The position numbers and the translations under genes are program-made. Below are positions 10,903 through 13,066 of a stretch of DNA of 64,000 nt, piece by piece. The stretch is from Sinorhizobium medicae. GTDB taxonomy: Bacteria; Pseudomonadota; Alphaproteobacteria; Rhizobiales; Rhizobiaceae. Numbering within the stretch: the first letter of the stretch is position 1; each line of letters begins with the position of its first letter. The stretch covers positions 1 to 64,000 of the forward strand of contig NZ_VITA01000004.1 of the NCBI RefSeq assembly GCF_007827695.1. Direction: 5' to 3'. The notes under the pieces were generated by a model. It was not told the DNA's origin. It worked only from the letters and a program-made list of their open reading frames with translations, and did not search any database.

Positions 10903-11973
10903 ATGCTTGAAATGAAGAACATATCCAAGGTCGTGGGGGGCGAGATGCACATCCACCCGACCGACCTTGTGCTGGAGAGGGGGTCGCTGAACGTGCTGCT
11001 CGGCCCGACGCTCTCCGGCAAGACGTCGCTGATGCGGCTGATGGCCGGTCTCGACAAGCCAGCCTCCGGTTCGATCCATCTCGACAATGCGGACGTTACC
11101 GGCGTTCCGGTTCAGAAGCGCTCGGTTGCCATGGTCTACCAGCAGTTCATCAACTATCCCGCGATGACGGTATACGAGAACATCGCCTCGCCTATGCGGA
11201 TCAAGGGCGCCGACGCCGCCACCATCGACCGCGAAGTGCGCAAGGCGGCGGAACTTCTGAAGCTTACGCCATATCTCGACCGCACGCCTCTCAACCTGTC
11301 CGGCGGCCAGCAGCAGCGCACGGCGCTTGCGCGCGCCATCGTCAAGAACGCCGATCTGGTGCTGCTCGACGAACCGCTTGCGAACCTCGACTACAAGCTG
11401 CGGGAGGAATTGCGCGAAGAGCTGCCGAAGATTTTCTCCGCATCAGGCGCGATCTTCGTCTATGCGACGACCGAGCCTTCCGAAGCGCTTCTCCTCGGCG
11501 GCAACACCGCCACGATGAGCGAGGGAAGGATCACCCAGTTCGGCCGCACAATCGACGTCTATCGCCAACCTGTCGATATCGTTACGGCACGTACATTTGC
11601 CGATCCGCCGCTCAATACCATCGACCTCCTGAAGAGCGGGTCGCATTTCGCGCTCGAAGGCAAGCCCGTGCTTCCCGTTCCCGTGCATCTCGGCGCCGTC
11701 GCCGACGGCCCCTGTACCGTCGCTTTCCAGCCACACCACCTTTCTTTCGACCCGCCGAACGGCAGCGACCAACCACTTGCCGTCAAGACGGCGATCTCGG
11801 AAATCACCGGGTCCGAGAGTTTCATTCACGTCGCGTTCGCGGGCGCCCGCTGGGTCATGCTCGCGCCCGGCATTCACGAGATCGAACCGGACGCAACCCT
11901 CAGAGTCTTCGTCGACACGCGCCACCTTATGGCCTTCGGGCCGGACGGCAGGGCGGTCGGCGGAAGGGCCTGA
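10903..11973 (+). CDS. glpS: Glycerol ABC transporter ATP-binding protein GlpS, degenerate nucleotide site
   Basis: A 356-residue MalK-like ATPase with a C-terminal regulatory (TOBE-type) domain. Walker A is altered (GPTLSGKTS, 34-42, Leu in place of the middle Gly). The LSGGQ signature (132-136) and Walker B (LVLLDEP, 152-158) are normal. The H-loop histidine is replaced by threonine (T190, VYATTEP where VYVTHDQ is usual). ATG 10903 is preferred because GGAG lies about 7 bases upstream. It pairs with GlpT next door; the defects suggest an asymmetric ATPase dimer. Confidence 0.9.
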   Translation: MLEMKNISKVVGGEMHIHPTDLVLERGSLNVLLGPTLSGKTSLMRLMAGLDKPASGSIHLDNADVTGVPVQKRSVAMVYQQFINYPAMTVYENIASPMRIKGADAATIDREVRKAAELLKLTPYLDRTPLNLSGGQQQRTALARAIVKNADLVLLDEPLANLDYKLREELREELPKIFSASGAIFVYATTEPSEALLLGGNTATMSEGRITQFGRTIDVYRQPVDIVTARTFADPPLNTIDLLKSGSHFALEGKPVLPVPVHLGAVADGPCTVAFQPHHLSFDPPNGSDQPLAVKTAISEITGSESFIHVAFAGARWVMLAPGIHEIEPDATLRVFVDTRHLMAFGPDGRAVGGRA

Positions 11974-11995
11974 GGAAGGCGTCGGGGAGGAAACC

Positions 11996-13066
11996 ATGGC
12001 ACGCATCAATCTCGAACACATCCGCCACGCTTACGGCGCCAAGCCGAAGTCGGAGAGCGATTATGCGCTGAAGGAAGTACATCACGAGTGGAACGACGGC
12101 GGCGCTTACGCATTGCTCGGGCCCTCCGGCTGCGGCAAGACCACGCTGCTCAACATCATATCGGGGCTGATCAACCCCTCCGAGGGCCGCATTCTCTTCG
12201 ACGGCACGGACGTGACGCATCTGACGACGCAGCAGCGCAACATCGCCCAGGTGTTTCAATTTCCGGTCATCTACGACACCATGACCGTCTACGACAATCT
12301 TGCATTTCCACTGCGCAACCGCCGTGTGCCGGAGACCGAGGTCGACCGCCGCGTCAAGGAAATCCTTGAAATGACCGGGCTCGTCAGTTGGGCGAAGAAG
12401 ACTGCGCGCGGGCTGACGGCCGACCAGAAGCAGAAGATTTCGCTCGGCCGCGGCCTCGTGCGCTCGGACGTCAGCGCCATTCTCTTCGACGAGCCGTTGA
12501 CCGTCATCGATCCGGAAATGAAATGGGTCCTGCGCTCACAGATCAAGCGGCTGCACAAGCAGTTCGGCTTCACCATGGTTTATGTGACACACGACCAGAC
12601 CGAGGCGCTCACCTTCGCCGACAAGGTCGTTGTCATGTATGACGGCCAGATCGTTCAGATCGGCACGCCGGCCGAACTCTTCGAGCGCCCACGCCATACC
12701 TTTGTCGGCTATTTCATCGGCTCTCCGGGCATGAACGTGTTGCCGGCCGAGATCGCCGGCAGCACGGCCTCCATCGGCGACCAGAGGATCGCGCTGGATT
12801 TCCGGCCTGAGGTCAAGGCCGGCACGAAGACCGAGCTTGGCATCCGGCCGGAATTCATCTCGCTCGGCCGCGAAGGCATGCCGGTTGCGGTCACCAAGGT
12901 CGAGGATATCGGCCGCCATAAGGTGGTGCGTGCCCGCTTCGCCGACCGGCCGATCTCGATCATCGTCGACGAAGACGGTGAGATTCCCGCGGAGCCGCGT
13001 GTCACCTTCGATCCGAAGGCAATCAATATCTACGCCGATTCCTGGCGCGTCGGCGGGGAGGCCTGA
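11996..13066 (+). CDS. glpT: Glycerol ABC transporter ATP-binding protein GlpT, degenerate signature motif
   Basis: A 356-residue ATPase, second of the pair. Walker A (GPSGCGKTT, 42-50), Q-loop (Q88), Walker B (ILFDEP, 162-167) and the H-loop His (H199, YVTHDQ) are intact. The ABC signature is not LSGGQ but LTADQ (140-144). Together with GlpS this leaves one good and one degenerate composite ATP site. GGGGAGG precedes the ATG. This is not the MFS glycerol-3-phosphate antiporter that bears the same symbol in E. coli. Confidence 0.9.
   Translation: MARINLEHIRHAYGAKPKSESDYALKEVHHEWNDGGAYALLGPSGCGKTTLLNIISGLINPSEGRILFDGTDVTHLTTQQRNIAQVFQFPVIYDTMTVYDNLAFPLRNRRVPETEVDRRVKEILEMTGLVSWAKKTARGLTADQKQKISLGRGLVRSDVSAILFDEPLTVIDPEMKWVLRSQIKRLHKQFGFTMVYVTHDQTEALTFADKVVVMYDGQIVQIGTPAELFERPRHTFVGYFIGSPGMNVLPAEIAGSTASIGDQRIALDFRPEVKAGTKTELGIRPEFISLGREGMPVAVTKVEDIGRHKVVRARFADRPISIIVDEDGEIPAEPRVTFDPKAINIYADSWRVGGEA

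Follow-up and report, generated by a model that had tools for sequence, protein, structure and literature searches.

The window, a stretch of 64,000 nucleotides from Sinorhizobium medicae, includes an operon in which two MalK-type ATPases, GlpS and GlpT, are encoded next to each other. A MalK homodimer has two identical consensus ATP sites, whereas GlpS and GlpT together would have one consensus and one degenerate site. The question raised by this locus is how many of its ATP sites are built to hydrolyse ATP. Our answer, drawn from motif conservation and from analogy with known ABC proteins, is that the two subunits probably (at roughly three chances in four) form an obligate heterodimer in which one site hydrolyses ATP while the other binds it and is impaired in its hydrolysis.

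Operon, fold and likely substrate

The operon glpR-glpD-glpS-glpT-glpP-glpQ-glpU-glpV occupies positions 8458-17017 of the forward strand, as defined by open reading frames and Pfam domains (Table 1). It is of CUT1 type, Pfam placing its two permeases in BPD_transp_1 and its binding protein in SBP_bac_1, and glpT starts 22 nt 3' of glpS. GlpU (DUF2160) was matched in 75 of the 80 named loci described below and in 50 of 118 others, where the search excluded open frames shorter than 120 aa and misses mean little. Two adjacent genes lie behind glpV at 17264-20420; by the look of their translations, they may encode xanthine/uracil-type permeases.

An ABC_tran domain is present in both ATPases, and OB_MalK is found by Pfam in GlpT only. 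Single-chain models of GlpS (mean pLDDT 88.4) and GlpT (mean pLDDT 88.0) can be superposed over nearly all of their length on MalK and other CUT1 ATPases, with TM 0.80-0.87 to the complete MalK chains 2r6g_A and 9bcr_D. The GlpS model has TM 0.86 to MalK chains 2r6g_A and 1q12_A, and that of GlpT has TM 0.80 to 2r6g_A and 0.87 to 9bcr_D. Each subunit, as modelled, is MalK-like in fold. Among solved structures there is no close relative of either protein, the best phmmer scores being 200 and 219 bits. Identity with the sn-glycerol-3-phosphate ATPase UgpC (NCBIfam NF008653) was considered and rejected, GlpS and GlpT scoring 238.5 and 278.4 bits against a curated cut-off of 432.

The closest named GlpS among the matches listed is that of Ensifer sp. 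USDA 6670 (92% identity). A locus of Rhizobium leguminosarum strain Norway (L194) has the same genes in the same order, with identities of 74% for GlpS, 80% for GlpT, 88% for GlpP, 89% for GlpQ, 79% for GlpU, and 89% for GlpV. Ding et al. in 2012 reportedly dealt with GlpSTPQUV as a glycerol ABC importer of R. leguminosarum VF39. Unlike that system, the operon described here has no adjoining glycerol kinase. The VF39 GlpSTPQUV system is described as a glycerol importer in PMC7912956, an account in which the term 'Walker' is absent. By orthology with the R. leguminosarum system, the transported substrate is probably glycerol.

Table 1. Genes and ATPase motifs of the glycerol-type operon (window positions), and the other two-ATPase operons of the same genome.
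Feature	Position	Strand	Evidence or conservation
glpR, DeoR-family repressor	8458..9222	+	ORF; Pfam DeoRC 5.9e-53, HTH_DeoR
glpD, glycerol-3-phosphate dehydrogenase	9350..10861	+	Pfam DAO and DAO_C
glpS, MalK-type ATPase, 356 aa; H-loop and A-loop changed, signature consensus	10903..11973	+	motifs, Pfam, model
GlpS V11, A-loop position without aromatic	10933..10935	+	Val 112/119, Phe 2/119
GlpS Walker A GPTLSGKTS (residues 34-42), divergent	11002..11028	+	Gly, third-position Thr, Gly, Lys, Thr each 119/119
GlpS signature LSGGQ (residues 132-136), consensus	11296..11310	+	119/119
GlpS Walker B Asp156 and catalytic Glu157, retained	11368..11373	+	119/119
GlpS D-loop L[AV]NLD, near consensus	11377..11391	+	119/119
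GlpS T190, replaces H-loop His	11470..11472	+	Thr 108, Ser 11, His 0 (n=119)
glpT, MalK-type ATPase, 356 aa; signature and D-loop changed, Walker A/B and H-loop consensus	11996..13066	+	
GlpT Y13, A-loop aromatic	12032..12034	+	Tyr 119/119
GlpT Walker A GPSGCGKTT (residues 42-50), consensus	12119..12145	+	Lys 119/119
GlpT signature LTADQ (residues 140-144), degenerate	12413..12427	+	LSGGQ 0/119; Asp at second Gly 117/119
GlpT Walker B Asp165 and Glu166, retained	12488..12493	+	119/119
GlpT D-loop LTVID, non-consensus, invariant	12497..12511	+	LTVIDP 119/119
GlpT H199, H-loop His, retained	12590..12592	+	THD 119/119
glpP, permease	13068..13934	+	Pfam BPD_transp_1
glpQ, permease	13955..14779	+	Pfam BPD_transp_1
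glpU, small membrane protein	14793..15212	+	Pfam DUF2160
glpV, solute-binding protein	15293..17017	+	Pfam SBP_bac_1
Pair A	L284:5825-8064 (C6, 353.8-356.1 kb; also L005/L251)		second two-ATPase operon
Pair B	L287:7935-10142 (C6, 49.9-52.1 kb; also L129)		third two-ATPase operon
Pair C	L130:2503-4904		fourth two-ATPase operon

Conservation of the motifs

Orthologues of GlpS were searched for within the Pseudomonadota at E<=1e-75, and matches were found in 45 of 385 genomes of the class and 85 of 398 genomes of the phylum (own genome included in the counts), which unite to 119 genomes. The scored pairs (n=119) are the window and 118 other Pseudomonadota loci. All 119 GlpS sequences are distinct, as are all 119 GlpT sequences, and GlpS identities go down to 44%. 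The two genes are adjacent and in the same order in all 118 fetched loci (116 by automated check, L124 and L125 by inspection of coordinates). A natural GlpS-GlpT fusion was found in none of the 118, that is, no two best matches shared one open frame; in L124 and L125, flagged in this check, GlpS is preceded by a long open frame. In a search of plasmids, GlpS-like genes were matched by sequence, motifs aside, in 252 of 72,556 records.

GlpS retains LSGGQQQR in all 119 sequences, as well as the Walker B DEP and the Q-loop Gln. Its residue 190 is always preceded by Tyr-Ala and is followed by Glu in 118 of 119. The Walker A stretch GPTLSGKTS fits the general form GxxxxGK[ST] and departs from the family form GPSGCGK[ST]T: Lys40 and Thr41 are retained and the third residue is Thr in place of Ser throughout, while positions 2, 4, 5, and 9 vary across the orthologues. 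In GlpT, Walker B DEP and the Q-loop Gln are likewise invariant. Its signature is mostly L[TS]ADx with a variable last residue and is followed directly by KQ in 119/119, and LTVID stands where LSNLD would be expected.

A second set was made of the best 80 named loci among the matches listed, at least two of which are also in the first set. LSGGQQQR and YATTEP are present in 80/80 GlpS proteins of this set, and L[TG]ADxKQK, LTVIDP, and YVTHDQ in 79/79 GlpT proteins, the GlpT of L234 being cut by a contig end and omitted. The GlpT A-loop columns of this set were misaligned and are left aside. The motif pattern is not due to chance, because it is found in 119/119 pairs with all sequences distinct and in 80/80 and 79/79 proteins of the second set.

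The sequence-only reading of this locus had described GlpS as having a Thr for the H-loop His and a normal LSGGQ, and GlpT as having consensus Walker A, Walker B, and H-loop with LTADQ as its signature; these sequences and their coordinates are right, and the lack of the His in GlpS and of LSGGQ in GlpT is borne out across the orthologues. It had also named an H-loop His in GlpS orthologues or LSGGQ in GlpT orthologues as grounds for giving up the idea, and each was found in 0/119. The Walker A of GlpS, which it had called altered, does differ from the family form; as a true defect it is ruled out, since GxxxxGKT is retained in 119/119. The changes that it listed are real, and the loss of the A-loop aromatic (V11) in GlpS and the GlpT D-loop LTVID had been overlooked.

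Scoring against single ATPases

Motif elements were scored with a profile built from 75 single-ATPase relatives, 46 from this genome and 29 from others, where 'single' means that no second MalK-like ATPase lies within the fetched stretch. These relatives are not a random sample: the 46 came from a GlpS similarity search and the 29 were best matches to a pair B ATPase. Two far relatives from the same genome, L169 and L170, both with the H-loop His, were omitted, and the three other two-ATPase operons were scored separately. All 75 singles have an H-loop THD and a signature [LM]SGGQ.

The Walker A and H-loop of GlpS and the signature and D-loop of GlpT each scored below the lowest single in 119/119 pairs. 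The same holds for the GlpS Q-loop, solely via the residue preceding the retained Gln (Tyr or His), and the GlpS Walker B fell below the lowest single in 7/119. Among the elements of the other site, scores below that limit were obtained for GlpT Walker A in 2/119, Q-loop in 1/119, and H-loop in 0/119, and for the GlpS signature and D-loop in 0/119 each. GlpT Walker B scored below it in 22/119, through hydrophobic residues only, with Asp and Glu retained. The A-loop could not score below the minimum of the singles, one of which is gapped there. Eight of the 119 pairs share a GxTG[SA]GKT Walker A, VHQFF, and YATSEP together with GlpT LSPDN; these linked variants are uncorrected for kinship and were given no weight.

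A proposed arrangement of one complete and one changed ATP site

An ABC ATP site is made up of the A-loop, Walker A, Q-loop, Walker B, and H-loop of one subunit and the signature of its partner (PMC7756269). The H-loop of one HlyB NBD forms a bond with the D-loop of the other (PMC6222333), and GlpS T190 and GlpT LTVID should therefore touch. This site make-up and D-loop contact together bring the strongly changed elements into the site between the GlpS Walker motifs and the GlpT signature. Mapped in this standard way, the non-consensus residues are confined to one predicted composite site. The earlier proposal that the changes fall in one composite site and leave the other complete is in line with both the standard site make-up (PMC7756269) and the element scores.

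From the constant pairing of the genes, the complementarity of their changes, and structural knowledge of ABC proteins, we infer a GlpS-GlpT heterodimer. GlpS and GlpT would form an obligate MalK-like head-to-tail dimer on the permeases GlpP and GlpQ. In site 2, the A-loop, Walker A, Q-loop, Walker B, and H-loop of GlpT would be closed by the LSGGQ and D-loop of GlpS; this site would be complete and would hydrolyse ATP. Site 1 would comprise the Walker A, Q-loop, and Walker B of GlpS closed by the LTADx and LTVID of GlpT, without an A-loop aromatic, an H-loop His, or an opposing LSGGQ. It would most likely bind Mg-ATP, because the Walker A Lys, Walker B Asp/Glu, and Q-loop Gln are retained, and hydrolyse it slowly or not at all, serving as a standing hinge or a regulatory site. 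The simplest stoichiometry would be one ATP per glycerol, with one hydrolysis per cycle.

Data on other ABC proteins are consistent with such a site. H-loop mutants lose hydrolysis, with activities below 2% for MalK H192R and HisP H211, below 0.1% for HlyB H662A, and of 8% for MsbA (PMC6222333), and in TM287/288 the degenerate site has an about 25-fold higher affinity for Mg-ATP than its counterpart (PMC7756269). Together with the residues retained and lost in site 1, these data suggest by analogy a site that would hold nucleotide unproductively, leaving one hydrolysis per cycle.

Other readings of the locus

Both sites might hydrolyse ATP, site 1 using another proton path with Glu157 as base and Thr190/Glu191 or water in place of His. 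A Pdr5 H-loop mutant is reported to retain ATPase activity (PMC6222333), and with the catalytic Glu of GlpS retained, site 1 could still turn over; all 119 GlpS sequences have the Walker A Lys, the Walker B Asp/Glu, and the Q-loop Gln, and all have Thr or Ser at residue 190, with Glu next in 118. The partner, however, offers no LSGGQ and has an Asp in its signature in 117/119, and H-loop mutation leaves almost no activity in MalK, HisP, and HlyB and 8% in MsbA (PMC6222333), so that we consider two-site hydrolysis unlikely. Alternatively, site 1 could be relaxed, decaying, and without function, its motifs having drifted after the subunits specialised, as the variable Walker A positions of GlpS and the variable last signature residue of GlpT would allow. 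Such drift is quite improbable, since the odd residues are themselves conserved, not only in GlpT (LTVIDP and the post-signature KQ in 119/119, the signature Asp in 117/119) but also in GlpS (Tyr-Ala before the H-loop and Thr/Ser190 in 119/119), at GlpS identities down to 44%.

Separate GlpS2 and GlpT2 homodimers, working on different permeases or with one of them shared with other CUT1 systems, would fit the report that shared ATPases occur only in CUT1 importers (PMC7658222) and the dozens of MalK-like ATPases in this genome. Against them stand the adjacency of the genes in 118/118 loci and the fact that neither homodimer would have a complete ATP site, each having two faulty ones, where the heterodimer has one complete site; we regard this arrangement as very improbable indeed.

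Other two-ATPase operons of the genome

Three other operons with two MalK-like ATPases were found among the places examined in this genome (Table 1). In pair A, Asp takes the place of the catalytic Glu in the Walker B (LLDDP) of the upstream ATPase, whose H-loop has Gln where His is usual; the downstream partner has the His and a D-loop MGQLEP. With further changes in the upstream signature (LSNGQ) and in the downstream Q-loop (Glu), pair A does not restrict its changes to a single site. Of 240 class genomes, three, the own genome among them, have orthologues of pair A, and the motif pattern is retained in 3/3. The operon also encodes an FGGY kinase, a 2-hydroxyacid dehydrogenase, two class II aldolases, and a GlpD-type dehydrogenase, enzymes that suggest a polyol as substrate.

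Pair B has TTS for THD in the upstream ATPase and LSSGQ in the downstream one. Both of its Q-loops have Glu for Gln and both D-loops are odd, and here too the changes extend beyond a single site. Its neighbours are a GMC oxidoreductase, a cupin, and a short-chain dehydrogenase. A search with pair B gave matches at E<=1e-75 in 35 of 240 class genomes, the best outside the own genome being a single gene 44% identical, and the 29 such matches examined as loci are all single, consensus ATPases. Pair C was rejected as a further case, having the H-loop His in both subunits and the signatures LSGGD/LSGGE.

The H-loop His is thus lost in three of the four two-ATPase operons versus none of the 46 scored singles of this genome, with a hypergeometric probability of 2e-4 if the operons are independent, which the grouping of GlpS with pair A suggests they may not be. 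In all three, the ATPase lacking the His is the upstream gene. In trees, GlpS and GlpT each form a clade (100/100) on a long stem, and the upstream ATPase of pair A falls together with GlpS (97/92 and 98/95). The second tree has a set of GlpS, A1, A2, and B2 (98/95) with GlpT outside, so that no matching common origin is shown for the partner subunits. With such long branches the groupings are unsure; GlpS and the pair A upstream ATPase may descend from one ancestor lacking the His. We tentatively suggest, at somewhat less than even odds, that CUT1-type importers with two ATPases make up a general, as yet undescribed class with one active site, in which the upstream His is lost and the signature or D-loop of the partner is altered, in several lineages.

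Comparison with known transporters

As modelled, GlpS and GlpT share the subunit fold of E. coli MalFGK2, C-terminal domain included, and their operon is likewise of CUT1 type. The state of the GlpS H-loop resembles that of the inactive MalK H192R. A mutation in one MalK subunit was reportedly found by Davidson and Sharma in 1997 to impair maltose transport severely. GlpST would have had to adapt to a one-sided loss of this kind, perhaps by way of the invariant GlpT D-loop LTVIDP. The D-loop lies at the dimer centre and normally makes no nucleotide contact (PMC7756269), a central position from which the change in GlpT may act on both sites.

Exporters such as TM287/288, TAP, CFTR, BmrCD, and Pdr5 have one consensus and one degenerate composite site (PMC7756269). 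As in these, the changed signature of GlpST would face changed residues of the partner, and in Pdr5, as in GlpS, the H-loop His is replaced (PMC7756269). Degenerate sites of human transporters and Pdr5 usually lose the catalytic Glu (PMC7756269), whereas GlpS retains Glu157 in 119/119. Loss of Glu is a common, non-universal mark, ABCG5/G8 having signature and Walker A changes instead (PMC7756269). GlpST differs from the exporters in the set of elements changed, namely the H-loop His, A-loop aromatic, signature, and D-loop, and in being an importer.

Among importers, RbsA and NupO have one degenerate ATP site (PMC11466899). These are type II importers with two NBDs in one chain and loss of the Walker A Lys in the second NBD (PMC11466899), whereas GlpS and GlpT are separate MalK-type chains that both retain this Lys. 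The earlier statement that asymmetric sites are rare in carbohydrate importers was too strong in view of RbsA/NupO (PMC11466899) and of the two further operons here in which one subunit lacks the H-loop His. Among the open-access titles and abstracts searched, none reported a degenerate site for GlpST or for any other MalK-type importer.

How many ATP hydrolysis events drive one cycle of a maltose-type importer is an old question, for which MalFGK2 is awkward because its two sites are identical. GlpST would provide a natural and widely retained separation of the two sites in the MalK fold, each of which can be mutated alone. The make-up of its degenerate site, with Glu retained and His, signature, A-loop, and D-loop changed, would also help to ask which residue sets a one-site mode. 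If the wider suggestion made above is true, two-ATPase CUT1-type pumps would run on an asymmetry that reportedly cripples MalFGK2.
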